DNA of 64,000 nucleotides from Pontibacter actiniarum (GTDB taxonomy: Bacteria > Bacteroidota > Bacteroidia > Cytophagales > Hymenobacteraceae): NCBI RefSeq assembly GCF_003585765.1, contig NZ_CP021235.1, positions 682,001 through 746,000 on the forward strand, in the 5' to 3' direction. This document shows, piece by piece, positions 723-64,000 of this stretch. The notes under the pieces are model-generated. The model searched no databases. It was not told where the DNA came from and was given only the letters and a program-made list of their open reading frames with translations. Position numbers and translations under genes: made by a program. Within the stretch, counting starts at the first letter, position 1. The number at the start of each line of letters is the position of its first letter.

Positions 723-1808
723 ATGAAAATACTGATAACCGGAAATATGGGGTATGTTGGCCCGGGCGTGGTTGAGCGCCTGCGCGCTGCCTACCCCGAA
801 GCCACCCTTGTAGGCTACGACATGGCCTATTTTGCCTCTTGCCTGACCAACGCTCCCGTGCTGCCTGAGAGCCAGCTGGATGTGCAGCTGTACGGTGATG
901 TGCGCACCATGCCAGCCGAGGTGCTGGAGGGCGTGGATGCCGTGGTGCAACTGGCTGCCATCTCCAACGACCCGATGGGCAAGAAGTTTGAGGACGTGAC
1001 CATGGAGGTAAACTATAAGTCGAGCGTGCGTATTGCCGAAATGGCTAAGGCTGCCGGTGTAAAGAACTTCGTGTTTGCCTCGAGCTGCAGCATGTATGGC
1101 GCTGCCTCCGAGCAGGCCAAAACAGAAGAGTCGGAACTGAACCCGCTCACCGCCTATGCCCGCTCCAAAGTAGCCACCGAGAAAGAGCTGCAGCCGCTGG
1201 CCGGCGACGGTTTTACGGTGACCTGCCTGCGCTTCGCCACTGCCTGCGGCATGAGCGACCGCCTGCGCCTGGACCTGGTACTCAACGACTTTGTGGCCGG
1301 AGCCGTGACGACAGGCAAGATCAGCATCCTGAGCGACGGCACCCCTTGGCGCCCGCTGATCCACGTAAAAGACATGGCGCGCGCTATTGAGTGGGCCGTT
1401 ACAAGAGAAGCCTCCAACGGCGGCGAGTATCTGGCCGTGAACACCGGGTCCAACGAGTGGAACTACCAGGTGTATGAACTGGCTAACGCCGTGGCCGAGG
1501 TAATGCCGGGCGTGGATGTGTCGGTGAACCAGGACGCAGCCCCGGACAAGCGCTCCTACAAAGTAAACTTCGACCTGTTTAAGCAGCTGGCGCCAAACCA
1601 CCAGCCGCAGTACTCGCTGATCCAGGCCATTGAGGAACTGCACGAAGGGCTGAAAGCCATGGATTTCAAAGACGGGGACTTCCGTAACTCGCAGCTGATG
1701 CGCCTGATGGTGCTCAACAGCCTGCAGGACACAGGTAAGATCAACGAGCAGCTGCAGTGGCAGCGAAACACATCCAGGGTATCCAACGCCGAACTAGAGA
1801 CTGCCTAA
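723..1808 (+). CDS. NAD(P)-dependent SDR sugar-nucleotide epimerase/dehydratase
   Basis: This 361-residue protein is an extended short-chain dehydrogenase/reductase acting on a nucleotide sugar in the cytoplasm. The Rossmann dinucleotide motif is at residues 7-13 (GNMGYVG, fitting GxxGxxG). Mid-protein there is SSCSMYG, followed by the catalytic YxxxK (YARSK). The substrate cannot be read from the sequence; position between rfbF and an RmlC-like epimerase suggests a CDP- or dTDP-4-keto-sugar. The start at 723 gives the Rossmann strand at the usual distance from the N terminus. The next gene begins 12 bp after the stop, so they are probably co-transcribed. Confidence 0.88.
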   Translation: MKILITGNMGYVGPGVVERLRAAYPEATLVGYDMAYFASCLTNAPVLPESQLDVQLYGDVRTMPAEVLEGVDAVVQLAAISNDPMGKKFEDVTMEVNYKSSVRIAEMAKAAGVKNFVFASSCSMYGAASEQAKTEESELNPLTAYARSKVATEKELQPLAGDGFTVTCLRFATACGMSDRLRLDLVLNDFVAGAVTTGKISILSDGTPWRPLIHVKDMARAIEWAVTREASNGGEYLAVNTGSNEWNYQVYELANAVAEVMPGVDVSVNQDAAPDKRSYKVNFDLFKQLAPNHQPQYSLIQAIEELHEGLKAMDFKDGDFRNSQLMRLMVLNSLQDTGKINEQLQWQRNTSRVSNAELETA

Positions 1809-1820
1809 GTATAACACAAC

Positions 1821-2384
1821 ATGATTTTTACAGAAACAAAGTTAAAAGGGGCCTTTATCATTGATGTAAAGCGCCTGGAGGACGAGCGCGGCTTCTTTGG
1901 CCGTTCCTTCTGCCAAAAGGAGTTTGAGGAGCATGGTTTGAGCAATGACGTAAGGCAAACCAACGTATCCTATAACAAGAAGAAAGGCACGCTGCGCGGC
2001 ATGCACATGCAGCTGGCGCCCAACGAGGAGTCGAAGCTGGTGCGTTGCACACGTGGTGCCATTTACGATGTGATCATCGATATGCGCCCGGGCTCCGAAA
2101 CTTACAAGCAGTGGATAGGGGTGGAGCTGACGGCTGATAACTACCGCATGCTGTTTGTGCCCGAGGGCTTTGCGCACGGCTTTATCACGCTGGAGGATAA
2201 CACGGATGTGACATACCAGGTGACAGAGTTCTACACCCCCGGTGCCGAGCGCGGCATCCGCTGGAATGATCCGGCCTTCAACATTGAGTGGCCGATCGAG
2301 CCAGTCGTGATATCTGAAAAAGACCAGGCCCATCCGGACTTTGTGGATGAGCAGGAAAAATCTACAGGAAAGCTGTTGGTGTAA
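1821..2384 (+). CDS. rfbC: dTDP-4-dehydrorhamnose 3,5-epimerase family protein
   Basis: This 187-residue cupin is of normal length for RmlC/RfbC, which epimerises C3 and C5 of a 4-keto-6-deoxy nucleotide sugar. Visible family landmarks are DERGFFGRSF near residue 20, the strand with the catalytic histidine (TLRGMHMQ, near residue 55), FVPEGFAHGF, and the YQVTEFYTPGAERGIRWND segment carrying the active-site tyrosine. In this cluster, beside a cytidylyltransferase, the substrate may be a CDP- rather than a dTDP-sugar; that is inference. It sits 12 bp after the SDR gene and 44 bp before the SAF-domain oxidoreductase, all on the plus strand. Confidence 0.88.
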   Translation: MIFTETKLKGAFIIDVKRLEDERGFFGRSFCQKEFEEHGLSNDVRQTNVSYNKKKGTLRGMHMQLAPNEESKLVRCTRGAIYDVIIDMRPGSETYKQWIGVELTADNYRMLFVPEGFAHGFITLEDNTDVTYQVTEFYTPGAERGIRWNDPAFNIEWPIEPVVISEKDQAHPDFVDEQEKSTGKLLV

Positions 2385-2428
2385 ACCGGCAGCTTTCGCT
2401 TCTTCAAATCTAAAACTTATACTTCAAG

Positions 2429-3790
2429 ATGATAATAGTTGATACCGCTCTGGCCAAGCGCCATGCCGAAGGTAACCCGATTCGTGTGGCCATGGTGGGA
2501 GCCGGGTTCATGGGCCGGGGCATCGCGCTGCAGATCAGTAAATATACAAAAGGGATGGAACTGGTGGCCATCTCCAACAGAACGCTCTCTAAAGCCAGGC
2601 AAGCCTACAACCAGGCCGAGATAGAGGAGGTGCAGGAGGTGAGTACGCTGGCCGAACTGGAGGAAAATATTCGCCAGGGTAAGTACAGCGTGACCGAAGA
2701 CGCCATGCTGCTGTGCGAGGCCGAGGGAATAGACGCCGTGATTGAGGTTACCGGGGCTGTGGAGTTCGGCACCAACGTAGCCATGCGCGCCATCCAAAAC
2801 GGAAAGCACATCATTATGATGAATGCCGAGGTGGACGGTACCGTGGGGCCAATGCTGAAAGTATATGCCGATAAAGCCGGTGTGGTGTTCACCAACGCCG
2901 ACGGCGACCAGCCGGGCGTAACCATGAACCTGTACCGCTTTGTGAAGGGGCTCGGCGTGAAGCCGGTGCTGTGCGGCAACATCAAAGGCCTGCACGACCC
3001 CTACCGCAACCCGACCACCCAGGAGGGTTTTGCCAAGAAGTGGGGCCAGCAGCCGTCGATGGTGACTTCGTTTGCCGACGGCAGCAAGATCTCCTTTGAG
3101 CAGGCGATTATCGCCAACGGTACCGGTATGCGTGTGGCCAAGCGCGGCATGCACGGGCCAACCGTGGCCAGTGGCACATCGCTGAAAGACTGTGTGCACA
3201 ACCTGTACCCGCTGGAAGACCTGACAGAAGGACCAGGGATAGTGGATTATGTGGTAGGGGCAGAGCCGGGACCGGGCGTGTTTGTACTGGGTACCCACGA
3301 CAACCCGATACAGCAGCACTACCTGAACCTGTACAAGCTGGGCGAAGGGCCTCTGTACCTGTTCTACACGCCGTACCACCTGTGCCACTTCGAAGTGCCG
3401 GCTACTGTGGCGCGTGCCGTGCTGTTCCACGATGCGGCCCTGACGCCGGTGGGCGCGCCGCAGGTAGCAGTGGTATCAGCCGCTAAGATAGACCTGAAGG
3501 CTGGCGAAGTGCTGGACGGCATCGGCCACTACATGACCTACGGCCTGTGCGAAAACGCCGACACGACAGCGGCCGAAAGGCTGTTGCCGATTGGCGTTGC
3601 AGAAGGCTGTGTGCTGAAGCGCGATATTCCGAAAGACCAGGTGATCACTTATGATGATGTGGTGCTGCCGGAAGGGCGACTGGTGGACAGGCTGCTGGAG
3701 CAGCAAGCCGCTTATTTCGCCGCCTCTGATGATGCTGAGAGAGAAAGAGTGCTGCAAGGCTTCTCAAACGCAACGGCATCGGTGTCCTAG
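2429..3790 (+). CDS. SAF-domain NAD(P)-dependent oxidoreductase (homoserine-dehydrogenase-like)
   Basis: The 453-residue product has an N-terminal Rossmann fold with VAMVGAGFMGRGIALQI near residue 20, a central catalytic-like region (NADGDQPGVTMNLYRFVKG; LHDPYRNPTTQEGFAKKWG) and a C-terminal SAF-like domain (PIGVAEGCVLKRDIPKDQVI near residue 385). This arrangement matches the family sometimes labelled predicted homoserine dehydrogenase (COG4091). True homoserine dehydrogenase activity is unlikely inside a sugar-nucleotide cluster; SAF domains also occur in sialic-acid-synthase-like proteins, so a role in making an unusual sugar is plausible but unproven. A strong terminator follows at 3827-3868. 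Confidence 0.82.
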   Translation: MIIVDTALAKRHAEGNPIRVAMVGAGFMGRGIALQISKYTKGMELVAISNRTLSKARQAYNQAEIEEVQEVSTLAELEENIRQGKYSVTEDAMLLCEAEGIDAVIEVTGAVEFGTNVAMRAIQNGKHIIMMNAEVDGTVGPMLKVYADKAGVVFTNADGDQPGVTMNLYRFVKGLGVKPVLCGNIKGLHDPYRNPTTQEGFAKKWGQQPSMVTSFADGSKISFEQAIIANGTGMRVAKRGMHGPTVASGTSLKDCVHNLYPLEDLTEGPGIVDYVVGAEPGPGVFVLGTHDNPIQQHYLNLYKLGEGPLYLFYTPYHLCHFEVPATVARAVLFHDAALTPVGAPQVAVVSAAKIDLKAGEVLDGIGHYMTYGLCENADTTAAERLLPIGVAEGCVLKRDIPKDQVITYDDVVLPEGRLVDRLLEQQAAYFAASDDAERERVLQGFSNATASVS

Positions 3791-3868: not shown

Positions 3869-3875
3869 AGAAACC

Positions 3876-4649
3876 ATGCCAGCAGACACAGTAGGATTGA
3901 TTCCGGCCGCCGGGCTGGGGTCGCGGCTTGCACCCATCCCATGCAGCAAAGAGCTTTTGCCGGTGGGGTTTGAGGCGCACCCGGAGCATGGGGAACCGCA
4001 CCCGAAGGTCGTATCGCAGTACCTCTTGGAGCACATGCAGCGCGCCGGGGCAGAGCAGGTGTACTTTATCCTGCGCAAGGGCAAGTGGGACATTCCCAAC
4101 TACTACGGCGACGGCAGCCAGTTAGGCCTGCAACTGGCTTACCTCCTCATGCAGCGCCCCTTTGGCTGCCCCTTTTCGCTGGACCAGGCGTATACTTTTG
4201 TGCGGCGGCAGCGGGTTGTGTTCGGTTTCCCGGACATTCTGATAGCACCGGAAGACGCTTTTGCCCGGCTGTTGCAGCGGCAGGAGGAAACGCAGGCCGA
4301 TGTGGTGCTGGGGTGTTTCGGGGTACGCTACCCGCACAAGTGGGACATGGTGGACCTGAAAACTGGCGGAGAAGTAAACGCCATACTTCATAAACCCGCC
4401 ACCTCTGATCTGACCTACGGCTGGGCCATCGCCTGCTGGGGGCCGCGCTTTACCGAATTTATGCACCAGTACCTGGAGCGCTGGGAGGCAGAGGTTTATA
4501 CTTCGGGCGCTGAGCTAAGCCTGGGGGAGGTGGTGCAGGCGGCCATACAGAACGGTCTTTTAGTGCAAAGCGTATGTTTTGAGAATGGCAGCTGCCTGGA
4601 TGTAGGCACGCCTGAAGACCTGCAAAAAGCAATCAAAAACTTATCCTGA
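3876..4649 (+). CDS. Sugar-phosphate nucleotidyltransferase (NDP-sugar pyrophosphorylase family)
   Basis: This 257-residue protein resembles the glucose-1-phosphate thymidylyl/uridylyltransferase fold. Its N-terminal signature VGLIPAAGLGSRLAPIPCSK matches the AAGxGTRLxPxTxxxPK nucleotide-binding loop, with Ser replacing Thr in GSR and SKELLPV after it. Downstream are FGFPDILI (metal-binding Asp), GCFGVRYPHKWDMVD, and the C-terminal NGSCLDVGTPEDLQKAI typical of the family. The activated sugar cannot be assigned. It starts 8 bp after a terminator and ends 13 bp before a GT4 gene, so the pair may form a small unit of their own. Confidence 0.85.
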   Translation: MPADTVGLIPAAGLGSRLAPIPCSKELLPVGFEAHPEHGEPHPKVVSQYLLEHMQRAGAEQVYFILRKGKWDIPNYYGDGSQLGLQLAYLLMQRPFGCPFSLDQAYTFVRRQRVVFGFPDILIAPEDAFARLLQRQEETQADVVLGCFGVRYPHKWDMVDLKTGGEVNAILHKPATSDLTYGWAIACWGPRFTEFMHQYLERWEAEVYTSGAELSLGEVVQAAIQNGLLVQSVCFENGSCLDVGTPEDLQKAIKNLS

Positions 4650-5898: not shown

Positions 5899-7131
5899 CT
5901 AAGCTACTTCTGCCCGCCTTGCCGTCTTACTCTTTTTCATCTCATCCAGGATAGCCACCACCCGGTCGGTTTCTACCAGCAGGTGCTCCCGCTGCCCCTG
6001 GCCTGCGTCTCGCACGCGCTTGTTGCCTTTGCAGATGATGTATTCATAGTCCAGGTCAATTTTAGTGGCGATGTCGTAGAAGGGCTCAATCACAAAGCCT
6101 TCGTTAAAAATCTCGATCATCTTAGTGCCCGGCTTGCAGAAGAACATGCTGATGAGGCCGGCACCGGTCGCGCCAAGCACTACTTTTGCCTTGGAGAACA
6201 GCTTTATCTTCTCTTTTATACTTAGCTGGCTCGATACAACGGTTTTAAACCCATAAGGCTCCAGCGTATCGAGCAGTTCTTTCTCATTCAGTACGTTGCG
6301 TATTTTAGAGTCGGAGCGGCTAATGTACAGGTACGGGCTTTCCGGCGTAATCAGATCCGACTCTTCCTCGGCGTACGGCAGGAACGACTCCTGAATAAAG
6401 TCACAGAGCCACTTCGGCACTAGCGTGTGGTTGCCGCGCGGCGCCGTAGAGGCAATAATACAATCGGCGGCAATGTGCGACTGCTTATCACCGGAGATAA
6501 TCTTGTCCTGCGGGATACCCAGCAGCTCCAGCGTCTCTGTCTGGTAGCTGTAACGCAGGCTCGGCACATAAAACCAGTCTACTTTATCGTACAGGCCGCT
6601 CTTGCGGAGCAGGTGCAGGCGCGGGAGCACGTCTAAAAACCAGTGCCCGATGTTGTTCAGGCCCGCGCCACCTGTTAGCAGCGAGAACACCGTGCCCTTG
6701 TATATTGCCGGAGGGGTAAAGTAGCGCTGCTCAAATATGTTGTTCAGGTTTGGCTCCGATACCTTGCCGTTCGTCAGGCTCAGCGACACGTTCTCAACAA
6801 GCCGGTTGTACTGCGATACCACCGCCACGCTGCTTTCGTTATCGGTGTAGATGCGGCCGTTGGGTACCTCTACCACCGTGTAATCGGTCTGTACTTTTTT
6901 CTTTGGTTTCCAGTACTCGGAGCAAGCCTCGTACAAGTGGTCCGAAATGTTTAGTTCTGTGGTGAGGGACGGATAAATGGGATGGACCCTGACTTCGCGC
7001 GCGTTATTGGCAGTCAGCTGTTCCAGGTTAATACGGCAAACGTCGCCAGGTCTGTAGTGTGTGTTGTGAGGTACAATTCGTCCTAACAATTTCTTCAACC
7101 TTTTAGTCCCCTTGTTATAGTAAGCCTTCAT
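5899..7131 (-). CDS. GT61-family glycosyltransferase (DUF563)
   Basis: The 410-residue product carries the two landmarks of family GT61: GGAGLNNIGHWFLDVLPRLH in the middle and LGATGAGLISMFFCKPGTKM toward the C terminus, followed by IEIFNEGF. In bacteria these proteins are found in capsular and exopolysaccharide loci. No signal peptide or membrane segment is evident. It is the last gene of a three-gene minus-strand group (MBOAT, AlgX-like, GT61), 54 bp downstream of the AlgX-like stop. Donor and acceptor are unknown; the pairing with acyl-transfer genes suggests work on the same polymer. Confidence 0.85.
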   Translation of the reverse strand: MKAYYNKGTKRLKKLLGRIVPHNTHYRPGDVCRINLEQLTANNAREVRVHPIYPSLTTELNISDHLYEACSEYWKPKKKVQTDYTVVEVPNGRIYTDNESSVAVVSQYNRLVENVSLSLTNGKVSEPNLNNIFEQRYFTPPAIYKGTVFSLLTGGAGLNNIGHWFLDVLPRLHLLRKSGLYDKVDWFYVPSLRYSYQTETLELLGIPQDKIISGDKQSHIAADCIIASTAPRGNHTLVPKWLCDFIQESFLPYAEEESDLITPESPYLYISRSDSKIRNVLNEKELLDTLEPYGFKTVVSSQLSIKEKIKLFSKAKVVLGATGAGLISMFFCKPGTKMIEIFNEGFVIEPFYDIATKIDLDYEYIICKGNKRVRDAGQGQREHLLVETDRVVAILDEMKKSKTARRAEVA

Positions 7132-7185: not shown

Positions 7186-8325
7186 CTATTCTGATTCTCT
7201 GAAATTAACCAGTAGTCTGTCTTCTTTTTGCTCCGGAGTTGCCTGTAGCTGCGCCACGGTGGCGTGCTTGGCCAGTATGTTGGCGGCTACTTTTACGGCT
7301 ACTTCGTTCCAGTGGGCGTCATCAGTAGGGTAGAGCGGCACCTGCTTCTGCTGGTACAGCGTCTTGAATGTTGGCTGCAGATCCACGTAGGCGACGCCCC
7401 GCTCCTGCAGCTTGTCCATCAGGCGAGGCAGGAACGTGGCCTGCTTCTGCGATGGCAGCAGTTTATAGTAAATATTTTCCTTGTTCGGGATGGGAAGAAA
7501 CACGAACTCGATGCCCCGCTCCTGCAGCACATCCCGGTAGCCCTCCAGCACATCGGCGATGCGGTTCACTTCTTCTTCCGAGAGTTCACGGTTGGCATAG
7601 TCGCCTTCCATAAAGAACTCATTATTGTAGTTGATATACTCCCGCTTGCCCGCTACCCGCTCCATGTCCGCCAGGGTGCGGCGGTAGAGCCCCAGCTTTG
7701 AGATGCGGTCGGCCGTAACGGCCAGGTACGTCAGGGCAGGGGAGGAGCTGATGATATTTCCTGTGAAGTCGCGCAGTTCGGAGTTGATGCCGTTCTCGCC
7801 GACCGCAGGCAGCTCCGGTATGCGCCGCTCAATGCTGGATACGATCACCAGCTTGGGTGGCACCTCCTCAAAGCGGTCTGTGGCCAGGAAGCGGTTGACA
7901 GTGGCGGGGGCGAAGGAGTACACGGGGCGGTGCAGGTGCTGCTCCAGCACAGAGGCCAGCGTTTCGTCTTGAGAGAGCTTGGCGCCCGTAATGTTGGAGT
8001 CACCGATAAGCAGCACATCGTTCTTTGTATCGCGGTTGCGGTAGCCGTAGGCGTCGGTGTACCACTCCACCTCACGCTTCTGTGCGTAAGGCGTGCGCGG
8101 GGCAAGCTCTCCCTCCTCCACCATCTGCATGTGCACGTTCGGGTAAAAAGGGCCCGACATCACACGCATGGAGTTCACAGAGATGGTCTCCCAGATGCGG
8201 AAGGTAAAGAAGTTCATGGGCAGGACAAACACCTCTATGAGCGGCCAAAGTATAAACGGCAGCGCCAGGAGAGTAAGCTTCCGGAGTAGCTTTCTCACAC
8301 CTTTGTCTTGTATTGATTTTGTCAT
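7186..8325 (-). CDS. AlgX/AlgJ-like SGNH-fold protein, membrane-anchored
   Basis: This 379-residue protein has one N-terminal hydrophobic segment (about residues 16-40), then an SGNH-like domain. The nucleophile block is LLIGDSNITGA near residue 107 and the catalytic Asp/His block is TDDAHWNEVAV near residue 337, so the Ser-Asp-His set looks intact. Proteins of this type (AlgJ, AlgX, DltD-like) move acyl groups onto exported polysaccharides together with an MBOAT protein. The MBOAT gene lies immediately upstream with a 6-bp gap, which strongly supports that role. The domain should face the periplasm. The acyl group is not known. Confidence 0.82.
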   Translation of the reverse strand: MTKSIQDKGVRKLLRKLTLLALPFILWPLIEVFVLPMNFFTFRIWETISVNSMRVMSGPFYPNVHMQMVEEGELAPRTPYAQKREVEWYTDAYGYRNRDTKNDVLLIGDSNITGAKLSQDETLASVLEQHLHRPVYSFAPATVNRFLATDRFEEVPPKLVIVSSIERRIPELPAVGENGINSELRDFTGNIISSSPALTYLAVTADRISKLGLYRRTLADMERVAGKREYINYNNEFFMEGDYANRELSEEEVNRIADVLEGYRDVLQERGIEFVFLPIPNKENIYYKLLPSQKQATFLPRLMDKLQERGVAYVDLQPTFKTLYQQKQVPLYPTDDAHWNEVAVKVAANILAKHATVAQLQATPEQKEDRLLVNFRESE

Positions 8326-9807: not shown

Positions 9808-10167
9808 GGGTTAATCGGTTTAAGGGTGTACTAAGGTCCAGTCAGCAGCAGGCATTGTCTTGCTTCTCATGTACGTAGAGGAGGCGGTGGCTCATTAAGG
9901 TTATGTCGGTTTTATATTATATAGAAGTTGCACTAAAAGGTTGTGGCCGCCGGCATATATTTTTTCTTATAGATATGAATTTTAAAGTATAGGGGTCGAA
10001 TGGAGGCAGCATAGCAGCTTTTTACGGTGTTTTAACATTGGTGTTGGGGCGCGGCGGTATTTTAAAATGTATTTTTTGTAGCTGCCGTGCCTCGGCTGCG
10101 GCAACCAAGGTATAGGAATGTCGTTATATAGGGAGCTACATCATCCGCAACAACATTTGATCATCCT
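9808..10167. promoter_or_regulatory. Divergent intergenic region between MBOAT and SGNH/CHU_C genes
   Basis: This 360-bp gap has no gene. It is AT-rich from about 9900 to 10080 and must hold promoters for both directions. I could not find an exact TAnnTTTG -7 element for either gene; the nearest on the plus strand is TATTTTTTG at about 10069, one base too long. A copy of the iterated heptamer (AAGTATA) is at 9985-9991. Confidence 0.4.
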
Positions 10168-13100
10168 ATGCCCTTATACGTTTACCTACGCCAGGTACTT
10201 TTTGTCGTGCTGTTTGGCTTATGTTTACAAGCTGTGTCTGCACCACTTCCTTTGCACGGGGGTGCCACTGCGCCATATGCGCTGGCGGCACCTCAACTGC
10301 AGGCAAAGCCTTCTTTGGTAGGCGCCATTACCCTAAGCTGGGCCGCAGTGCCGGGCGCCACAGGCTACGAGCTGGAAAAGTCAAACACAGGAGCGGCCGG
10401 CTCCTTCACCGCCTTACAGACCCTTGGCGCCACTGCCCGCAGCTTCCGCCACACAGGCCTTTATTACAAGCAGAAAGTCTATTACCGCCTAAAGGCAACC
10501 AGCAGCAGCGGCCAGTCAGCCTACAGCAGTACCGTGAGTGCCACCACCCATGAGCAGGGCCACAGCTTTAACATCATGCCCCTGGGCGACTCCAACACCG
10601 AGGGCGGGAGCAGCAGCGTCCCAACGGAGCAAAAGGCCGCCTACCGGGCCAAGCTGGAGCAGCTGCTCAACGGTTCTGTTTCCAAAGGGCGCTACGACTA
10701 CGTTGGCAGCGAAAAATCAGGCAGTGCGTACGTAACCGACACGGATCACGCCGGGTTTGGCGGTGCCCGCAACAAAGACCTGATCACGCTGCTGCAGCAC
10801 GGTTCCTATAAACGCTGGTACGATAACCAGCACATGGGCCTGAACTATGAGGCCCGGTACCTGGAGGTTTACCACCCTGATATCATTCTGCTGCACGTGG
10901 GCACCAATGAGCTAAGCAACGATGGCGTCGATAACTCCCAAACCACCCTGGAGGAGCTGGAGGGCGTTTTAAATGAGATAGATACCTATGAGAAGAGCTC
11001 GGGGAAAGAGGTAACGGTGATCCTGGCGAAGATCATTAAAAGCGTCTGCACCGAACAGTTCTGCTACCGCGGCGACACCTACAGCAAAAACGACATCATC
11101 GACTTTTACAACGCCAAGCTGGAGACACTTGCCCGGGAGCGCATGCGTAACGGCGACAGACTTATTCTGGTGGACATGGCCGATGCCGGCATTGTTTACA
11201 ACTTCCGGGATAAAGGCGGGGATATGGCAGACCCACTGCACCCGGCCCAGGTAGGCTACGACAAAATGGCTCCCGTGTGGTTTAAAGAGCTGGATAAGCT
11301 GCTGAACGTAGTGCCGCAGACACCACCTGACACACAGGCGCCGGAAACCTCCATTGCCTCCAAGCCGGCAGCGGTGAGCAACCGTAGCTCAGCCGCCTTT
11401 AGCTTTACCAGCAACGAAGAAGGCGTTACCTACCAGGTAAGTATGGACGGCGGCCCGTTTGTGAACGCTGCAACCCCTTTTACTGCGAATAACCTGCCGG
11501 ACGGGGAGCACACACTACAGGTGCGTGCCAGAGACGAAGCCGGCAACGTGGATGCCTCACCGGCCTCCTATACTTGGGTGATCGATTCGAAAGCGCCTGC
11601 CGCACCTGTTATTGCCGCGCCTGCTGAGGGCGCTGTGCTACGAACAAACAAGCCAACCATAGCTGGTACAGCGGAAGCAGGCAGTAAAGTGCAGGTGTAT
11701 GCCGGGGCTACGCAGCTGGGAACCGTAACAGCAGGGGCAGACGGTAAATGGAACTTTGTGCCCGCCACAGGGCTTGCCGAGGGGCAGCAACAGCTTACGG
11801 CCAAGGCCACCGATGCCGCCGGAAACAGCAGCCCAGCAAGCACCACCAGAAGCTTTACCGTCGATTCCAGAGCACCTGAAACCACAATTGCCACTGGCCC
11901 GGATGCCGTTACACAGAGTAACAAAGCCGTGTTTAGCTTCTCCAGCAATGAAACAGCCGTTACCTATGAGGTAAGCCTCGACGGTGCTTCCTTTGCACAG
12001 GTGCAGAACCCATACACGGCCTCCAACCTTTCTGAGGGGGCGCACACCTTAGCCGTGCGTGCCGTTGATGCCGCCGGCAACAAAGATGCATCTCCAGCCA
12101 CACATGCCTGGCAGATAGACACGAAAGCGCCTTCGGCTCCGGCTTTTACAGGCGTTTCCGAAGACAGAGGCCCTGAAAAAGAGGACCGTATCACATCCGA
12201 TAACACACTCAAGCTGCTTGGCAGGGCAGAGGCCGGGGCGGTAGTAGCCGTGCAGAAAGACGGGAAGGCGATCGGCCAAACAAAAGCCAACGCTGCCGGA
12301 GACTGGGAGTTAAGCCACGAAAGCACCGCCCTGACCGACGGCAGCTATACATTTACTGCCACTGCCACCGATGCGGCCGGTAACGTTAGTGACGCCAGCG
12401 CCGAATTTACGGTGCAAATCGAGCGCACGGCACCGCAGGTGCGCGTGACAACAGACGCTACTTCTCCCGTAAAAGGCGCCTTTGAGGTACGTATCACATT
12501 CACAGAGGAAGTGTACGGTTTGGCTGCGGCAGATTTCACCGTGTCAAACGGGGGGCTGGAGAACTTTGCTTCGTCCGGTAAGGATGCCTACACGGCTACC
12601 GTCACACCTGCTGCGGATGGAGAGGTGCGCATCGTGCTGCCCTCTGGGAAAGCTACGGACCTGGCCGGTAACCCGAACGAGGCCTCTAACACCCTGGAAC
12701 TACAGTATGATGCCACACGGCCAAAAGTGACCTTGCAGTCAGGTGCGCCTGCCGTGGTAAACGGGCCTTTTGAGCTCGAGATCACGTTTGATGAGCCTGT
12801 CTCCGGGTTTGACCTCTCCGACCTAGCCGTCGCAAACGGTACCGCAAGTGATTTTGTGAAGCGCAGCCCGTCTAGCTATTCTGCACAGGTAAACCCATCC
12901 AAAGACGGGGAGGTGCGGGTAAGCATGGCTGCCAACAATGCCTTTGATGCGGCTGGTAACGGGAACCAAGCCTCCGCCAGCCTGCAGCGCGTGTATGATG
13001 TGCAGCCGCCAGCAGTGGTGCTTCGCACAGCTGCCGCAGCGCCGGTAAATGCTCCTTTCAGGGTGACGGTTCAGTTTAGCGAGGCCGTCACGGGCTTTGA

Positions 13101-15711: not shown

Positions 15712-15920
15712 TGTATCCTCTATGTGCTGTTACGGCCATTGTGGGGGATGTTGTTGAATAGGAATATAGCAGTGGGATAACCTGCTCAAGTATAAACCGG
15801 CTGTGTAGCAGTAGGATATAAGTGATATGGTACTTGTTTTAAAGAAGGTGATGGCTGTAACCAAAGCATAGGCCCTTCGTTAGCAAGGCCTGCAACAGTA
15901 ACCCCAATCCCAGTAGCCTT

Positions 15921-17651: not shown

Positions 17652-17847
17652 ATTCTGAAAAGTATAGCTGTATTTATTTAAACTCATATATACAATTGGC
17701 GTACTATACCCTAGTAGATGCTGGGTATGCGCCCACCCCTGTAAGCCAGTTACTTAGCCCTTAACGGCTTGCTTCTCCAGCGTGTGCCAGTGGTTGCTCC
17801 CGCAGGGGAGCCTGCTTTTGGGCGTGTTTCTCAACAGAACAGAATCC

Positions 17848-31704: not shown

Positions 31705-31744
31705 ACAAGTGTAAGGGTTAAGATATATACTTGTACTGCTATTC

Positions 31745-46213: not shown

Positions 46214-46750
46214 TTACTGATTCTTTGCCTCCCGCGTTCTTTTGTAGATGCGGATGGCCAGCATAAGTATGGCTGAGAAGAGAATAAGCCCTAAAATGCC
46301 CCACAGCATGCTAAGCGAGCTCTTGAGCACCACCAGAAAGACAATGCTGATGAGGAAGAGCGTGGCCACCTCGTTCCAGATGCGGAGCTGCGTGGAGCTA
46401 TACTTCAGGAGGCCCTGCTGCTGCTGTTTAAAAATGCGGTGGCAGAGAAAGTGGTACACATACAGCCCGACCACAAAGCTGAGCTTCCAGACCAGCCAGC
46501 CGGGTACGGAGCCGTAGAGGTACAGCATGGAGAGCCCGAAAATAAGGGTAAGCACAGCCGAGGGCCAGGTAATGCCGTACCAGAGGCGCTTTTGCATCAG
46601 GGCTAACTGCCGCTGAAGTATGGTTTTCTCCGGCTCCGGTTTTTCAGCGGCCTCGGCAAAGTATATAAACAGGCGCACAATGTAGAACAGCCCGGCAAAC
46701 CAGGTAACCACAAAGATGATATGCAGCGCCTTTACGTAGAAGTAACTCAT
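46214..46750 (-). CDS. hemJ: HemJ-like protoporphyrinogen IX oxidase (CopD/UPF0093 family)
   Basis: This 178-residue membrane protein has four or five hydrophobic helices. It begins MSYFYVKALHIIFVVTWFAG with the conserved histidine at residue 10, and has GLYVYHFLCHRIFKQQ with further histidines, as in HemJ. HemJ oxidises protoporphyrinogen IX to protoporphyrin IX in bacteria lacking HemG and HemY. Its neighbour at 47000-48376 is hemN, which makes protoporphyrinogen IX, so two consecutive steps of haem synthesis lie together. It is preceded by a TACCTTTG -7 element and so has its own promoter. Confidence 0.86.
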   Translation of the reverse strand: MSYFYVKALHIIFVVTWFAGLFYIVRLFIYFAEAAEKPEPEKTILQRQLALMQKRLWYGITWPSAVLTLIFGLSMLYLYGSVPGWLVWKLSFVVGLYVYHFLCHRIFKQQQQGLLKYSSTQLRIWNEVATLFLISIVFLVVLKSSLSMLWGILGLILFSAILMLAIRIYKRTREAKNQ

Positions 46751-48376: not shown

Positions 48377-48536
48377 CTTGGGGTCTCCTCTCTTTATACT
48401 TTAACTGCGGCAAAGGTCAGGAGTATCAGCGGCTTAGGAAATGACATTTGTCACCATAAAGCGGCTGTGGGTGTGTTTCTTTGCCCAAATCTGTGTAACT
48501 TCACAGGATTTGCCACCTAGTTGCATCGATTATACT

Positions 48537-50537: not shown

Positions 50538-50771
50538 GCGCTGTGCCTGCCGCTTGTAAGGGGGCTACTCGAATAGCCGGGAGGTGCTATCATATAGCTT
50601 CTGTTGTCGCGTTTATACTTTGTCTGCCGGAACCATTGCTTTAGAGGGGGCACAAGTTGCACATGCCTGGATCGGGGTGGCTGGTGCCGCCAGGTATGTA
50701 ATAGAGCGGTTGTCGGAACGGTGTGATTTTTCAACCAGGGCTTCCCAAATGCACAGACACAGACGGTACGT

Positions 50772-53706: not shown

Positions 53707-53899
53707 GTAAAACCTTTGCTTTAGAATATGTTAAGAGTACAAAAGTGGTGAGGGCAAGTTCTCCTGCGGGAGCCATCCCTATGGTTAGGGCAGCATAAAG
53801 AGCATTGGTAATCTGCCCTGTATACTTGAAACAAGCAGAAATGTTATGCGTAAACCCCCTGACTCCACTAATAAATCTGTCTAATTCCTTCCCATACAT

Positions 53900-57212: not shown

Positions 57213-58283
57213 ATGGCTGCGCCCAAATTTCAGACACAAAAACAATCCTTTCATGCGGAGTTAAAACGCAGGACACAGGAATACTTCCAAACAACAGGTA
57301 TTTCCACTACCGGTAACTATAAGCTCTACACCAAAGCCATTATACTTACCCTGGGCCTGCTTCTGCTATACGTACACCTTGTGTTTTTTACGCCTGAAAG
57401 TGCTTTGCTTGCGCTGCTGGAGTGTGCTGTGCTGGGGATTATCACGGCGGGCATCGGCTTTAACATCTCCCATGACGGCTCCCATGGCAGCTTCAGCAAA
57501 ATAAAGAAGCTGAACGAAATGGCGGGCATGTTTCTGAATGTGCTGGGGGCTAACGAATTTATGTGGAATACCAAGCACAATGTAATTCACCATGCCTACA
57601 CCAACGTAGATGGCGTAGACGATGACCTGGATGCCGGTCCGTTTTTAAGGCTTTGCGAAACGCAGAAGTTTCGGAAGATACACCGGTTCCAGCATTTCTA
57701 TTTCTGGGCCGCCTATTCACTGCTTTTCTTCTTTTGGGTGTTTTTCTCTGATTACCAGAAGTATTTCACCAAAAAGGTGGGTACGATGCCGCTAAAGAAA
57801 ATGAAGGCCTCGGATCACATTATTTTCTGGACCTTTAAGGTTTTCCACCTGGCGTTTTTTGTGGCGCTGCCGATTTATACAGTTGGGCTGCTGCCTTGGG
57901 CGCTTGGGTTCCTGGTTTACGGCCTTGTAGCTGGTTTTGTGATGAGTATCGTGTTTCAGCTGGCGCACACCGTGCGTGAAACCCACTTCCCGGTTGTTTC
58001 TCCGGTTACAAACAAGCTGGAAGACGAATGGGCGGTGCACCAGCTTAAAACCACTGCTAACTTTGCCACCAACAACAAGCTGGTTACCTGGTTTTCGGGC
58101 GGGCTCAACTTCCAGGTGGAGCACCACCTTTTCCCGAAGGTGTCGCATGTGCACTACCCGGCCCTGAGCGTGATCGTAGCCCAGGCCTGCGCCGAATTCG
58201 GCATTCCGTACCATAACATACCCGGCATGCGCATGGCTGTTGTATCCCATGTGTCGTACCTGAAGCAACTGTCCAGAGGTTAA
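57213..58283 (+). CDS. Membrane fatty acid desaturase (acyl-CoA/acyl-lipid type)
   Basis: This 356-residue integral membrane protein has the three histidine boxes of di-iron desaturases: SHDGSHGS near residue 86, KHNVIHHAYTN near residue 120 and QVEHHLFPKVSH near residue 300. Four or so hydrophobic stretches flank them. It resembles the Delta-5/6 acyl-lipid desaturases in the VEHHLFP box and would introduce a double bond into membrane fatty acids, useful for adaptation to cold. A weak promoter-like TACCTTTA lies at 57140. It converges with the acyl-carrier-like gene at 58880-59140. A terminator follows at 58292. Confidence 0.93.
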   Translation: MAAPKFQTQKQSFHAELKRRTQEYFQTTGISTTGNYKLYTKAIILTLGLLLLYVHLVFFTPESALLALLECAVLGIITAGIGFNISHDGSHGSFSKIKKLNEMAGMFLNVLGANEFMWNTKHNVIHHAYTNVDGVDDDLDAGPFLRLCETQKFRKIHRFQHFYFWAAYSLLFFFWVFFSDYQKYFTKKVGTMPLKKMKASDHIIFWTFKVFHLAFFVALPIYTVGLLPWALGFLVYGLVAGFVMSIVFQLAHTVRETHFPVVSPVTNKLEDEWAVHQLKTTANFATNNKLVTWFSGGLNFQVEHHLFPKVSHVHYPALSVIVAQACAEFGIPYHNIPGMRMAVVSHVSYLKQLSRG

Positions 58284-58291
58284 TCCGGAGC

Positions 58292-58347
58292 AAAGTATAA
58301 AACACAAAAGCCACCCAGAAACGGGTGGCTTTTGTATTTTATACTTT
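58292..58347 (+). terminator. Rho-independent terminator of the desaturase gene
   Basis: The 25-bp arms (58292-58316 and 58323-58347) pair with one mismatch around a 6-nt loop. The outer part of each arm carries the heptamer AAGTATA/TATACTT. It begins 8 bp after the stop. Confidence 0.85.
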
Positions 58348-58368
58348 GTCGTTAACTCCGCCTGCGTT

Positions 58369-58879: not shown

Positions 58880-59140
58880 CTAGCTGGCCTGCTTTATACT
58901 TTGGTTGTAAACAAAGCTTACAAAATCATCGACAGAGTAAACCGGCACCTCGTCCGGAATGGTGAGGCCGTATGCCTTTTCCACCTCCAGGATAATGTCT
59001 ACCACATCGATGATATCAAGCCCGAGCTGTGTCAGGTCGCGGACCTGTGACAGCCTGTTCGGGTGTACCCTGGTGAGGGTGCTGATGATCTGAATCACTT
59101 CATTCTCAATTGCCTGAGTAGTATGCTGTATAGTAATCAT
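58880..59140 (-). CDS. Acyl-carrier-protein-like protein lacking the phosphopantetheine serine
   Basis: This 86-residue protein (start at 59140; the frame opens 10 codons earlier at 59170) has the four-helix ACP pattern: VIQIISTLTRVHP, then LTQLGLDIIDVVDIILEVEK and YGLTIPDEVPVYSVDDFVSF. In carrier proteins the motif reads GxDSL, with the Ser carrying phosphopantetheine; here it reads GLDIID, and codon 43 is ATC (plus strand GAT, 59012-59014). No other Ser stands in that position, so it should not carry an acyl chain. It may be a structural or regulatory partner, or a degenerate paralogue. It lies beside a desaturase and a terminator follows. Confidence 0.8.
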   Translation of the reverse strand: MITIQHTTQAIENEVIQIISTLTRVHPNRLSQVRDLTQLGLDIIDVVDIILEVEKAYGLTIPDEVPVYSVDDFVSFVYNQSIKQAS

Positions 59141-59299: not shown

Positions 59300-62200
59300 T
59301 TAATAAGCATGAGAGTGGCTCATTTTGTTGTTTTCCAACTCAGCTGTTTCACGCTCTAGCTCTTCCATAGACTTGTCTTCCAGTTCTATCACTGTTTTCT
59401 TGTCCATACCAAGCTTGGCCATAATGCGGTCGAACAGGTAGTAGATAACCGGAACCACAATCAGGGTCAGGAACATGGAGGAGCTCAGACCACCGATCAG
59501 CGCCCAGGCCAGACCGTTCTTCCACTCAGCACCTGGTCCGCTTGCCAGGGCAATCGGCAACATACCAATCACCATCGCCAAGGTTGTCATCAGGATCGGG
59601 CGGAAACGTATTCTTACCGCTTCAATCAGGGCTTCTTTCACTTCCACACCCTCAGACTTCAGGTTGTTGGTAAAGTCTACCACCATAATGGCGTTCTTGG
59701 CAACCAGACCGATCAGCATGATGATACCAAGTATAGAGAAGATACTCAGTGTTGATGCTGACAGCGCCAGGGCAAGCAAGGCACCAATAATCGCAAGCGG
59801 AATAGAGAACAGTACCACCAGCGGATACACATAGCTATCATACAGGGCCACCATGATCAGGTACACGAAGACGATCGAAGCCATCAGGGCAAGACCCAGT
59901 GTACCGAAACCTTCGCTCTGGTTCTTCAGGTCGCCACCGTAGGCAATAGAAACTCCGTTTGGTGTATCCATGTTAGCAAGGCGCTCCTGAATTTCAGTAC
60001 CTACCGAACCTGTTGGCCTACCGATAACTTGTGAGTTAACAGACACTGAACTTACACGGTCTTTACGCTCCAGCTTAGATGGGCCGGAAGACTGCTCAAT
60101 GTTTGCAAACTGGCTCAGGCGTATCTGCTCGCCTTTGTTATTTGTAAAGGCAAGGTTACCAATGTCAGCTGTGTTTCTGCGGTCGAAGTCATCCAGACGG
60201 ATGTTGATGTCGTAGTCTCTTTCTGAGCCGCGGAACTGGGCGTTGGTGTTACCGCTAAATGCAGTCTGCATACCAGCACCTACCTGCTCCAGCGACAGTC
60301 CAAGGCTTGCCATCTTATCACGGTCCACCGACACGGCAATCTCCGGGTTACCATCTTCCACTGATTTTTTCACCTCGGCAGTACCCTGTACCTGCTCCAC
60401 TTCGGCCATTACTCTGTCTGAGAAAGCCATCAGCGTGTCCAGGTTAGAGCCTGTCATGATCACCTGGATAGGAGACTGGTTACCACCGCCTACCATACTT
60501 ACAGGCACCATCGTGATTTTAACACCAGGTATGGTTTCTTCCAAGCCAACTTTCATCTCACGAGAGAAGGCGTTAGTAGATAGCACACGCTCAGTGGCAT
60601 CTACCAGCTGCACGTTCACCTCGGCCATGTAAGCTGTGTTTTGGCCAGCCTGTGCTGAAGAAGTGGTACCTACTGTCGTGAACAGGTTCGTTACTTCCGG
60701 ATACTGCTCCAGGTAACCTTCTACCTGGCGGGCAGCAAAGTTTGTTTGCTCTACTGTCGCGTTTTTAGGTAGCTCCAACTGTACGATAAATTCACCACGG
60801 TCACCGGCACTCACGAACTCACTACCGATAAAACCAGCAGGAACAAGTGCTATGGAAGCCACCAGTAACACGACTGTTGCCGCCATTGTGATGAACTTGT
60901 GGTTAAAGGCCCACTTCAAGGCAGCTGTGAAACCGTCAATCACGCGGTCCAGGAAGCGCTCGAAGCTAAGTATAAACCTTCCGAAGAAGTTCTTGTCTGA
61001 CAGGTGCTCCAGTCTGGAGAAGCGGCTTGCCAGCAACGGAATCAACGTAAAGGCTACGAATAAGCTCAGCATTGTAGAGATAGCTACTACCACGGAGAAC
61101 TGACGCAGGATATCTGATACCAGACCTGTAGACAAGGCAATCGGTACGAACACAACCACGATTACAAGTGTGATGGAAGTTACCGTAGCCATAATCTCGC
61201 GGATACCGTCATAAGCGGCCTGCGCTGGCTTTTTGCCCATTTCCATGTGTCGGTAGATGTTCTCGATTACCACAATGGCATCATCCACCAGAATACCTAC
61301 CACGAGTGAAAGGCCCAGCAGCGTCATTAGGTTAAGAGAGTAACCCAGCAGGTTCATCGCGATAAACGTAGCGATCAGGGAAGCCGGGATAGAGATCATA
61401 ACGATCACCGCGTTGCGCAGCGAGTGCAGGAACAGCAGCATCACTACGGCCACCAGTACAATCGCCAGGAACAAGTCATGGATTACGGCATCAGCAGCCT
61501 CTAGTGTAAACTCAGAGCTGTCTTTGGCAACTGTAAAGCTGAGTCCTTCAGCTGCATAGGTTTCCTCCAGTTGGTCCAGTGCCTTGCGTGTCAGTTCACT
61601 TACTTCCACGGCGTTGGCATCTGATTGCTTCTGGATAGAAAGACCGATAGAGGAAAGCGAGTTAACGCGTGTCAGTACCTCTACGTCTTTCTGTGCATCC
61701 TGTACTTCAGCCACATCGCTCAGGCGTACAGAAGCACCAGTGGCGTCTTCTTTCAGCACCAGATTGCGTAGTTGGTCTACTGTTTCATACTTACCAGCTA
61801 AGCGGATCAGTGTCTGGCCCTCTTCGTTCTTTACTTTACCAGTAGGGAAGTCAAGGTTAGAGTACTGTATTTTCTGCTGTACCTGCGAGATGGAGAGGCC
61901 GTATGCCTGCAGTCTATCCGCATCCAGGTTTACTTTAATCTCACGCTCCTGGCCACCCAGCACTTTGATCTGCGCCATACCTGGCACACGAGAAAGCTCT
62001 GGTTTTACTTTGTTCTCGATCAGGTCATAGAACGCAGTAGGAGACATTTTAGCGGTAGCACCAACCTGCATGATCGGCATATCGCTAAAGTCGAACTTAC
62101 CGAGTGACGGCGGATCTGCATCTTCAGGGAGTTCACCAAGTATGGCGTTGATTTTACGTTGTGCGTCCTGCAAGCTTTGGTCAACGTCAGTACCCTGCTT

Positions 62201-62485: not shown

Positions 62486-62522
62486 CTAATCTGTTTTCTT
62501 ATAGTTTAAAAGAAGTATGCCC

Positions 62523-63575
62523 TTAAAGCACAGTCACTTTTGTGCCATTCTTCAGGTTGATCTGGCCAGACTGCACCACTTTATCGCCAGCTTCCAGACC
62601 GCCTGTCACTTCTACTTTATTGCCTTGCGTGCCACCAACTTTGATGTCTTTCAGGAAGGCGCTGCCATTGTTCACCACAAATACCTGTGGGTTTTGTAAG
62701 CTACCGACGATTGCCTCCCGCTCGATCAGCAGGGCCTTACGCTGGTCTGCAACTTCAAAGTAAGCTGTGCCATACATACCGGCTTTCAGCGGGTTATCAG
62801 AAGGGTTGCTCACTTGCAGCTCCACGTTGTAGTTAAGCGAGTTATCGCCTTTGGCGGCAATGGCCTTCACGGTGCCTTCAAATGTTTCGCCACCAACGGC
62901 ATCTGCTTTAATCTGCACTTTCTGTCCGTCGCGTATCAGGCCAACCTGGCTTTCAGGCACCTTCACGTTCATCTTCAGGTTATCCACGTTCACGATGTTG
63001 AACAGTTTTGTACCCGGGCTCAGGTAAGAGCCGACTTCAATGAACTTCTCGTTGATGCGGCCCGAGATTGGCGCTTTGATGCTGGCGTCAGCCAGTCTTT
63101 TCTTAGCCGTGATCAGGGCAGCCTCTGCATTGCTGAAGCCTAGTCTGGCATCTTCCAGCTGGCGTTTCGTGATGGCATCACCCTCGGCCAGGTTCTCGAA
63201 ACGCTCCAGGTCACGCTTGCTCTTGGTGTAGTTTGCCTGTGCACGCACCAGTTCGGCACGCAGTAATTGAGCATCCACCTGCGCCAGCATTTCACCTGCT
63301 TTTACACGGTCACCGTTCTGCTTGTAGATCTTCAGCACCTGGCCCTGCGTTTCAGAGAGAAGCGTCAGGTCCTGCTCTGGTATAAAGTTACCTTGTGCTG
63401 TAAAAGACTTGTCTACTGCGCCAACCTTAGGTGTGGTCAGGGCAACGGGGATGCTTTCGCTCTTGCGCTCGGCAATGGCAGCGGTGGCGGCCATTTCCTT
63501 CTTGTTGTTCATTAATGTATAGCCAATAGCCCCTAATGCAACCAGTACAGCGACGATATAGATTATCTTCTTCAT
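62523..63575 (-). CDS. RND efflux periplasmic adaptor subunit (MFP)
   Basis: This 350-residue membrane-fusion protein begins with a membrane anchor (about 3-20, IIYIVAVLVALGAIGYTLM) and no lipobox. The lipoyl halves are present (VLKIYKQNGDRVKAGEMLAQ with the biotinyl-lipoyl pattern, and ASIKAPISGRINEKFIEVGS), separated by an alpha-hairpin (about 105-160), followed by the beta-barrel and membrane-proximal domains. It links the RND pump to TolC. Gaps of 37 bp to the pump and 18 bp to the TolC-type gene indicate an operon. Confidence 0.94.
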   Translation of the reverse strand: MKKIIYIVAVLVALGAIGYTLMNNKKEMAATAAIAERKSESIPVALTTPKVGAVDKSFTAQGNFIPEQDLTLLSETQGQVLKIYKQNGDRVKAGEMLAQVDAQLLRAELVRAQANYTKSKRDLERFENLAEGDAITKRQLEDARLGFSNAEAALITAKKRLADASIKAPISGRINEKFIEVGSYLSPGTKLFNIVNVDNLKMNVKVPESQVGLIRDGQKVQIKADAVGGETFEGTVKAIAAKGDNSLNYNVELQVSNPSDNPLKAGMYGTAYFEVADQRKALLIEREAIVGSLQNPQVFVVNNGSAFLKDIKVGGTQGNKVEVTGGLEAGDKVVQSGQINLKNGTKVTVL

Positions 63576-63593
63576 GTTTCTTTTGATGTTGTC

Positions 63594-64000
63594 TTATTTA
63601 GTTAGTGTTTCTAGTTCGCCTCTTGCTTTCAGGTAGTTCAGCTGAGCGACTTTATACTTTAATTTCTCGTTATTCAGGTTTGTTTTGGCCTCTCTCAGGC
63701 TTACCTCTGCGTCCAGCAGGTCCGTGAGTGGGGAGATGCCCTCTTTGTACAGGTTGTTGGTGGTTTCATACACCTCCTGGGCCAACTCCACGTTTTTTTC
63801 CTGCACTGCTATTGAATTTTGGCTGTTCCTCAACTGGGCCAGTGCGTTGGTCAGTTCCACGGCGGTGTTCGTTTCCAGCTTGGAGATGTCCTCGTTGATC
63901 TTTTTCATTTCCAGCTGTCCCTGTTTGATCTGGGCGTCTTTTTTGAAGCCGTCGAAGATCGGGATGTTAAGCTGCAGACCTACCACTGATGTTTTGAACC
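63594..64000 (-). CDS. TolC-family outer-membrane efflux protein, 5'-truncated by the window
   Basis: Only the last roughly 135 residues are in the window; the frame stays open to base 64000. They contain GLQLNIPIFDGFKKDAQIKQ, the usual start of the second OEP repeat, a long coiled region (LAQLRNSQNSIAVQEKNVEL), and YKEGISPLTDLLDAEVSLRE, the conserved end of the family. As first gene of the TolC-MFP-RND operon it provides the outer-membrane channel. Confidence 0.92.
   Translation of the reverse strand, partial: FKTSVVGLQLNIPIFDGFKKDAQIKQGQLEMKKINEDISKLETNTAVELTNALAQLRNSQNSIAVQEKNVELAQEVYETTNNLYKEGISPLTDLLDAEVSLREAKTNLNNEKLKYKVAQLNYLKARGELETLTK

Follow-up and report, generated by a model that had tools for sequence, protein, structure and literature searches.

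We analyzed a 64,000-nucleotide stretch of the genome of Pontibacter actiniarum, hereafter called the window, in which the heptamer TATACTT (AAGTATA when read from the other strand) occurs 45 times, with 28 copies on the plus strand and 17 on the minus strand. This word, or a version of it changed by one letter, is present in thousands of copies in 39 of the 50 species of Pontibacter (Bacteroidota) that we sampled, and thousands of copies with one-letter changes between groups of species resemble the "self" tags of bacteria that take up DNA of their own kind only. From the comparison of these genomes, we put at roughly 50% the probability that TATACTT is an uptake word, maintained by a biased form of DNA uptake that works without pili and read by a receptor in the cell envelope.

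Results

The word is in excess in the window and throughout the genome

Base composition predicts 4.7 copies of TATACTT for the window, and a control word with the same letters in reverse order occurs there 4 times. An earlier note, made from the letters of the window, had counted 44 copies and set chance at about five; the latter figure agrees with ours, and the former fell one short of the exact count. All coordinates in that note were correct by exact-match search, and the plus-strand copies missing from its examples begin at 2418, 16973, 24015, 28652, 29563, 31726, and 39168. CATACTT variants, which it had described as common, indeed number 30 in the window (5.2 times expectation).

The whole genome comprises 4,974,797 bases, in a contig of 4.77 Mb (C1, which holds the window at positions 682,001 to 746,000) and one of 204 kb (C2). 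It contains 4,114 copies of TATACTT (2,052 and 2,062 on the two strands), or one per 1.2 kb, compared with 352 copies of the reversed word (175 and 177). For tests against background models, we used a 644 kb sample made up of the window, 19 evenly spaced chromosomal stretches, and 200 kb of C2; one stretch (L004) was omitted because it overlaps the window. In this sample, AAGTATA ranked first among all heptamers under Markov models of orders 1, 2, 3, and 4, with 476 copies seen and 53, 81, 112, and 203 expected. It also ranked first under the maximal-order model (371 expected, z 10.7). When the window was analyzed alone under the maximal-order model, the heptamer was outside the ten best and only the hexamer AAGTAT led; 64 kb is short for this test, in which the heptamer leads in the larger sample. 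CATACTT was enriched 3.2-fold in the sample, and the extended word TTTATACTT was 34.7 times as frequent as base composition predicts.

Such a word might owe its frequency to codon usage, dipeptide bias, or a dispersed repeat element, and TATACTT does fit common dipeptides, for example, Ile-Leu and Tyr-Thr. In 371 coding sequences (381,684 bp), we permuted synonymous codons gene by gene, 100 times, which kept both the proteins and the codon usage. The shuffled sequences held 53.8 ± 6.6 copies of TATACTT, with a maximum of 70, and the real ones held 274; the corresponding values were 139 seen and 43.3 expected for CATACTT and 19 seen and 30.4 expected for the reversed word. Moreover, the word is densest in intergenic DNA, and in six species the information in the flanks of 556 copies does not exceed 0.46 bit, contributed by T at two bases before the word and at one after it. 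Given this low flank information, the unit measures 7 bp and has T-rich shoulders, and no larger conserved unit surrounds the core, as a dispersed repeat such as a repetitive extragenic palindrome (REP) or a miniature inverted-repeat transposable element (MITE) would have. Synonymous shuffling, intergenic density, and weak flanks together refute an origin in codon usage, dipeptide bias, or a repeat element, to which we attach a negligible probability. Neither of the outcomes that the earlier note had set against its own idea was observed, since the genome count lies far above that of the reversed word and codon usage is insufficient to explain it (274 versus 53.8). The same note had remarked that the word often forces the rare Ile codon ATA. 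This was only partly right: ATA makes up 22.9% of the Ile codons in the sample and is not very rare, and 110 of its 1,674 occurrences there lie in a word.

Copies lie in genes and in gaps and are balanced between strands

In the 444 kb of chromosome in our sample, we called genes by a simple longest-open-frame rule, by which small genes may be missed. Coding sequence held 274 copies, in all six registers and with 139 in sense and 135 in antisense orientation, while 122 copies lay outside coding sequence at a 2.7-fold-higher density. The word therefore occurs in coding and noncoding DNA and has no fixed orientation to the gene, as had been claimed. Across the 39 word-bearing species (1.10 Mb), density per kb was 1.61 in coding sequence, 4.01 in divergent gaps, 6.01 in tandem gaps, and 9.09 in convergent gaps, and the reversed word gave 0.12, 0.33, 0.21, and 0.06, respectively. 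Called coding sequence accounted for 1,545 of the 2,482 copies in these species, again in all six registers. Density dropped as protein conservation rose (rho -0.41, p = 0.027; 29 ortholog groups from two regions).

We also mapped copies relative to replication, another check that had been suggested, with the GC skew of the individual stretches as the guide to the replication strand and one stretch without skew (L007, 18 versus 2 copies) left out. There was no strand bias in the sample (174 leading versus 202 lagging, p = 0.16), and forward and reverse totals were within about 11% of each other in all 50 genomes. Some 20 kb stretches of C1 carry the word largely on one strand (L007, 18 to 2; L003, 14 to 3; also L001 and L002), within a genome that is balanced as a whole. 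In the RecJ regions across the genus, excess co-orientation of copies is found mainly below 200 to 400 bp.

The smaller contig is poor in the word. C2 had 80 copies in 200 kb (0.40/kb; reversed control, 27), and the chromosome sample had 396 in 444 kb (0.89/kb; reversed control, 33). Among 19 C2 proteins that we searched, several were a relaxase, a coupling protein, relatives of TraG, TraJ, and TraM, and metal transporters. Given the relaxase, the coupling protein, and the Tra relatives, C2 is probably a conjugative plasmid.

The word changes by single letters between clades

We counted the word in 50 Pontibacter species, which we denote by codes (P. actiniarum is G000), with the reversed word as the control in each. 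Twenty species use TATACTT, 12 use TATACCT, four use TATAGTT, three use both TATACTT and TATAGTT, two have provisional other words, and nine have none that is strong. TATACTT counts ranged from 770 (control, 982; G035) to 11,818 (control, 333; G025), amounting to 8.8 to 38.5 times control in the 23 carrier species and 0.8 to 4.5 times in the other 27. In P. actiniarum itself the excess is 11.7-fold, and only one of the 20 TATACTT species has a lower one. Among 80 named loci, the RecJ protein of P. actiniarum had its best matches in P. mucosus (91%) and P. aydingkolensis (90%). TATACCT reached 5,748 to 9,303 copies (18 to 38 times control) in twelve species of one clade and 1.3 to 6.7 times control in the other 38. 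TATAGTT reached 12,524 to 13,168 copies (15 to 21 times control) in G008, G038, G017, and G028. In the two-dialect species, the TATAGTT and TATACTT copies numbered 11,674 and 5,110 (G014), 6,094 and 9,116 (G012), and 8,118 and 7,552 (G045). One TATACTT species, G049, combines its main word (10,614 copies) with a weaker TATAGTT excess (3,531 copies, 4.2 times control), and in the remaining 42 species TATAGTT stood at 0.7 to 2.2 times control. The peak density in the genus was one copy per 330 bp. Under an order-3 model applied to 11 to 40 kb from each species, every one of the 39 word-bearing species had a dialect word as its first or second heptamer, and the second word of the three two-word species ranked 2 to 4.

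The two provisional cases are less clear-cut. In G035, TATATA was seen 244 times in 120 kb, with 57 expected, along with a lesser excess of CATATA (L126, L196-L199, L235), which may reflect a further dialect or a low-complexity bias. In 40 kb of G041 (L125, L234), TATACC was seen 75 times with 23 expected, and CATACC was seen 70 times with 25 expected, provisionally a dialect whose first pyrimidine is free. Across the whole G041 genome, TATACCT is in 5.7-fold excess, which is within the range of other species and by itself gives no support for such a dialect. The species without a strong word are G047, G027, G013, G033, G029, G007, G036, G037, and G016, and we looked for other words in 20 kb each of G047, G027, G033, and G029. 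G016 is borderline, as TATACTT ranks first there (64 seen, 21.5 expected) and reaches 4.0 times control.

Dialects follow the species tree. On a midpoint-rooted tree built by concatenating 11 proteins encoded in a syntenic 20 kb region, the seven dialect labels need 9 changes, compared with 22 or more when the labels were shuffled 1,000 times. Some deep nodes have support as low as 0.26, and given these nodes and the midpoint root, we can only infer whether the word was ancestral. Outside the genus, where we counted TATACTT only, the word reached at most 2.5 times control in the other 150 genomes of a family sample (five genera) and at most 2.7 times control in 294 other genomes of the class. 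Two genomes belong to both sets, and no comparable excess of the word was found in these 442 distinct genomes.

Copies of a species' own dialect are mostly conserved between sisters

We examined pairwise alignments of the syntenic 20 kb region in sister species and compared the words with 90 control heptamers, made of the letters of TATACTT rearranged and with at least 3 mismatches from it. This one set served all three words, and its match in composition holds for TATACTT only. The counts were rebuilt from rounded fractions, sites were counted in both directions and are not independent, and sites that were gapped or had poorly aligned flanks were omitted. In 8 of the 10 own-dialect comparisons, words were identical in both sisters more often than the controls (p < 0.01). 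This was the case for G025/G010 (62/67 words versus 312/439 controls, p = 4e-5), G015/G019 (46/58 versus 229/388, p = 0.002), G022/G019 (34/52 versus 163/362, p = 0.005), and G003/G044 (36/54 versus 155/456, p = 4e-6); for TATAGTT in G017/G028 (92/109 versus 383/684, p = 3e-9); for TATACCT in G039/G023 (60/72 versus 227/385, p = 4e-5) and G042/G002 (60/76 versus 173/361, p = 4e-7); and for TATACTT in G012/G014 (32/64 versus 216/746, p = 6e-4). The two exceptions were G000/G026 and TATAGTT in G012/G014. A foreign dialect, TATACTT in the TATAGTT pair G017/G028, showed no conservation beyond the control (14/26, p = 0.66).

Among 551 TATACTT sites compared between sisters, 348 were the same, 95 had a single change, 94 had multiple changes, and 14 had an insertion or deletion. 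Single changes fell at all seven positions of the word and included both transitions and transversions, which argues against one biased mutation as their source. The ratio of near-miss to exact words, tried as a decay clock, was not informative. The earlier description of a highly iterated motif is supported by the genome counts, the synonymous shuffling, the placement in all frames and on both strands, the conservation between sisters, and the clade-wise change of the word.

ComEC is present in all 50 species

We found ComEC in all 50 Pontibacter species, which is compatible with natural competence and does not prove it. In two species, G020 (C1:2771217-2771876) and G040 (C76:160505-161305), the comEC frame is broken by one stop, which could mean that competence was lost or that the sequence contains an error. 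Of the TATACTT species, G020 is in addition the one with the lowest excess of that word (8.8-fold). The comEC gene has the highest word density of 29 ortholog groups (4.72/kb), and we dropped the idea that it is a hot spot because amino acid makeup predicts this density (observed/expected ratio of 10.4, 8th of 22 groups). At matched species distance, ComEC was slightly more diverged in cross-dialect than in same-dialect pairs in five of five bins, and four other proteins showed no consistent cross-dialect divergence; species pairs are not independent in this comparison. On these sequence comparisons, ComEC as the reader of the word is a lead only.

Copies and neighboring genes in the window

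All copies in the window are listed in Table 1. Two of them stand at the feet of a terminator-like hairpin, and the segment at 58271-58365 folds to -42.8 kcal/mol. Among the genes of the window, that at 35912-38284 encodes a polysaccharide chain-length protein with a tyrosine-kinase-like ATPase domain (Wzz, GNVR, AAA_31). The large proteins encoded at 10168-14712, 20340-23885, 23968-26811, and 42725-44305 have tails for type IX secretion (CHU_C or Por_Secre_tail), together with domains of the Ig-like, PKD, PA14, lectin, or sugar-dehydrogenase kinds.

Table 1. Copies of TATACTT (+) and AAGTATA (-) in the window, each located by exact match. CDS, coding sequence; (-), as annotated for the CDS.
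Position	Strand	Location
1807..1813	-	edge of CDS 723-1808
2418..2424	+	intergenic
2859..2865	-	CDS 2429-3790
4191..4197	+	CDS 3876-4649
4497..4503	+	CDS 3876-4649
6217..6223	+	CDS 5899-7131 (-)
8248..8254	-	CDS 7186-8325
9985..9991	-	intergenic
11569..11575	+	CDS 10168-14712
15788..15794	-	intergenic
16137..16143	+	CDS 15921-17651
16973..16979	+	CDS 15921-17651
17660..17666	-	intergenic
18823..18829	-	CDS 17782-20130
20068..20074	+	CDS 17782-20130
23509..23515	-	CDS 20340-23885
24015..24021	+	CDS 23968-26811 (-)
25878..25884	-	CDS 23968-26811
28151..28157	+	CDS 27425-28672 (-)
28652..28658	+	CDS 27425-28672 (-)
28873..28879	-	CDS 28673-29518
29563..29569	+	CDS 29525-30772 (-)
31323..31329	+	CDS 30769-31704 (-)
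31726..31732	+	intergenic
31952..31958	-	CDS 31745-33061
36055..36061	+	CDS 35912-38284 (-)
39168..39174	+	intergenic
40622..40628	-	CDS 40148-40699
42372..42378	+	CDS 40749-42551
44140..44146	+	CDS 42725-44305
44466..44472	+	CDS 44455-45366
44730..44736	+	CDS 44455-45366
46399..46405	+	CDS 46214-46750 (-)
46659..46665	-	CDS 46214-46750
47743..47749	-	CDS 47000-48376
48395..48401	+	intergenic
50614..50620	+	intergenic
53821..53827	+	intergenic
57341..57347	+	CDS 57213-58283
58293..58299	-	left foot of terminator-like hairpin directly 3' of the stop of CDS 57213-58283 (exact match and fold)
58340..58346	+	right foot of hairpin after CDS 57213-58283 (exact match and fold)
58895..58901	+	intergenic
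59729..59735	-	CDS 59300-62485
60968..60974	-	CDS 59300-62485
63653..63659	+	CDS 63594-63986 (-)

Discussion

Likeness to known uptake sequences

The Pontibacter words share features with uptake sequences: they are in excess, occur on both strands, are denser in intergenic DNA, form dialects by clade, change by point mutation, are sparse in acquired DNA, and are mostly conserved. Like the DNA uptake sequence (DUS) of Neisseriaceae, TATACTT is a short, nonpalindromic word with thousands of copies in and between genes. As described in PMC3630211, DUS dialects follow the species tree, paired copies occur in terminators, the genome of Simonsiella muelleri has two dialects, the kingDUS has 5,918 copies in 2.4 Mb, and the DUS is 10 to 12 bp long with an invariant CTG. 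Our three two-dialect species parallel Simonsiella muelleri, the window hairpin with the word at both feet resembles the paired DUS in terminators, and the densities that we observed (one copy per 1.2 kb in P. actiniarum; 13,168 copies in the roughly 4.3 Mb of G028) are in the range of known uptake words. In contrast to the DUS, the Pontibacter word is 7 bp long, has TATA in common among its three main dialects, and belongs to a different phylum.

The uptake signal sequence (USS) of Pasteurellaceae carries flanking T-tracts, and its core is described as 9 bp long. According to PMC7811141, it evolves by point mutation, and DNA that was newly acquired and coding sequence under constraint hold few copies of it; it can be explained by molecular drive through biased uptake, which suffices with no other benefit needed. 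The Pontibacter word likewise changes by point mutation, is sparse on the plasmid-like C2, and is thinner in conserved proteins, whereas its flanks have only the weak T on each side.

Within the same phylum, transformation of Riemerella anatipestifer needs ComEC, DprA, ComF, RecA, and as yet unknown surface proteins, with no known pilus-type part among the essential genes named in PMC8459023. Pontibacter shares the phylum and ComEC with this species. In contrast, the passages of PMC8459023 drawn on here describe no uptake word, and the DUF5689 domain of Riemerella is untied to word status in Pontibacter. Given the published features of uptake sequences, the presence of ComEC in every species, and the transformation of Riemerella with ComEC and surface proteins, we favor an uptake word as the explanation.

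Such a word could arise as follows. A surface or periplasmic DNA receptor of Pontibacter would prefer word-bearing DNA (TATACTT in P. actiniarum), so fragments from related cells that carry the word would be taken in and recombined more often than wordless fragments. Alleles with the word would slowly displace alleles without it, and the word would accumulate by point mutation wherever genes tolerate it. If the receptor's preference shifted by a base, the dialect would shift, and if the uptake machine were lost, copies would decay. Type IV pili would play no part in DNA entry, which would proceed by way of an outer membrane component and ComEC in the inner membrane. In this account we infer the receptor, the uptake preference, the competence of these species, and the direction of dialect changes. 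The fuller proposal, which we hold tentatively and at slightly less than even odds, is a self-specific, pilus-free uptake in which an envelope receptor reads a 7 bp word with shifting specificity, with three, perhaps five, dialects and several wordless lineages, and which would be the first in Bacteroidota. In searches of the open-licence literature, we found no DNA uptake sequence or similar word from this phylum, and as far as these searches go, it would be the first DNA uptake sequence in Bacteroidota.

Several observations weigh against uptake. The pilin ComP binds the DUS, and the predicted USS receptor is also a pilin, yet in the 50 species we did not find the type IV pilus ATPase (PF00437), in a search that did not extend to the pilins themselves. 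Matches to this family were stretches of about 40 to 65 residues at no more than 25.9 bits, above the cutoff of 24.9 in 3 of 50 species, and all 14 control genomes were positive. We do not place the Pontibacter word in the class of pilus-based uptake sequences. No receptor of the word was found in Pontibacter, and loss of ComEC is not supported as the cause of the wordless state, since all nine wordless species have it. The surface-protein lead from Riemerella, DUF5689, is present in 22 of 50 species and does not follow word status. In P. actiniarum and its sister (G000/G026), words were no more conserved than controls (8/32 versus 118/406, p = 0.75), which may reflect relaxed upkeep in this species; TATAGTT in G012/G014 was not clearly conserved (26/68 versus 216/746, p = 0.07); and in the wordless pair G013/G027, the few TATACTT sites were also somewhat conserved (15 sites, raw fractions of 0.80 versus 0.60). 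One of ten C2 stretches (L022) was as word-rich as the chromosome. Finally, a search of the open-licence literature for natural transformation in Pontibacter turned up work on LexA only.

As to DUF5689 itself, inspection by eye placed its short form in apparent carbohydrate-uptake (SusCD-type) loci, and its long form resembles a secreted protein.

Other readings of the word

A word similar to highly iterated palindrome 1 (HIP1) of cyanobacteria, made or kept by a DNA methyltransferase and methylation-dependent repair, is the main rival to an uptake word because HIPs also have replacements; its dialects would then be target changes. In density and spread HIP1 is similar, and in some cyanobacteria other words, with matching methyltransferases, take its place, as reported in PMC4390886; enrichment in coding and noncoding DNA on both strands also fits this rival. 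However, HIPs are palindromes and are described there as GC-rich, whereas the Pontibacter word is AT-rich and none of TATACTT, TATACCT, and TATAGTT equals its own reverse complement. HIPs are also tied to methyltransferases, whereas the Pontibacter word does not clearly follow either of the two families that we searched. PF01555 methyltransferases are absent from 13 of the 39 word-bearing species, including G010 (11,627 copies) and the TATAGTT-rich G028, and PF07669, found in 47 of 50 species, is missing from word-bearing G020. Matches to PF07669 of at least 97 bits occurred in 24 species, namely, 20 of the 39 word-bearing species and the wordless G007, G016, G029, and G047. In addition, differences between sisters show no single mutation type. 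We consider a methylation-based origin unlikely. The earlier note had offered HIP1 and uptake words as comparisons for the motif; between the two, the evidence leans to uptake words, given that the word is not a palindrome, that the three main dialects are single-base variants, and that 13 of the 39 word-bearing species lack PF01555 methyltransferases.

A mark of self might instead be read inside the cell, as a Chi-like stop for a recombination nuclease or as a sign that spares self DNA from a defense nuclease. The scarcity of the word on the plasmid-like C2 would suit such a mark, and a changed nuclease could bring a changed dialect. Chi and words like it show polarity relative to replication, and the usual spacing of Chi is wider than one per 330 bp, so the balanced leading and lagging copies, the near-equal strand totals in all 50 genomes, and the peak density in the genus all speak against this explanation; a strand-polar signal of the Chi type is not supported, and we think an intracellular mark improbable. 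Slightly more doubtful still is chromosome-wide selection for a site bound by a nucleoid, segregation, or transcription protein. The word is densest in gaps, above all convergent ones, and is able to form the feet of terminators, as such a site might be. Against this, 1,545 of the 2,482 copies fall within called coding sequence, where they occupy all six registers, and nine relatives have no strong word, which would be odd for a site that organizes the chromosome.

Implications

Uptake words have been described from Neisseriaceae and Pasteurellaceae (PMC7811141), whose uptake uses pili. If TATACTT and its dialects are uptake words, they would represent an independent, pilus-free case in Bacteroidota, and the self-marking of DNA would have arisen more than once. 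A gene that follows the dialects would then be a direct handle on the outer membrane DNA gate of Bacteroidota, and the genus would offer a natural experiment on the joint change of a recognition word and its reader. Even without an uptake receptor, one-letter changes between clades, in words as frequent as one copy per 330 bp, call for a sequence-specific protein.

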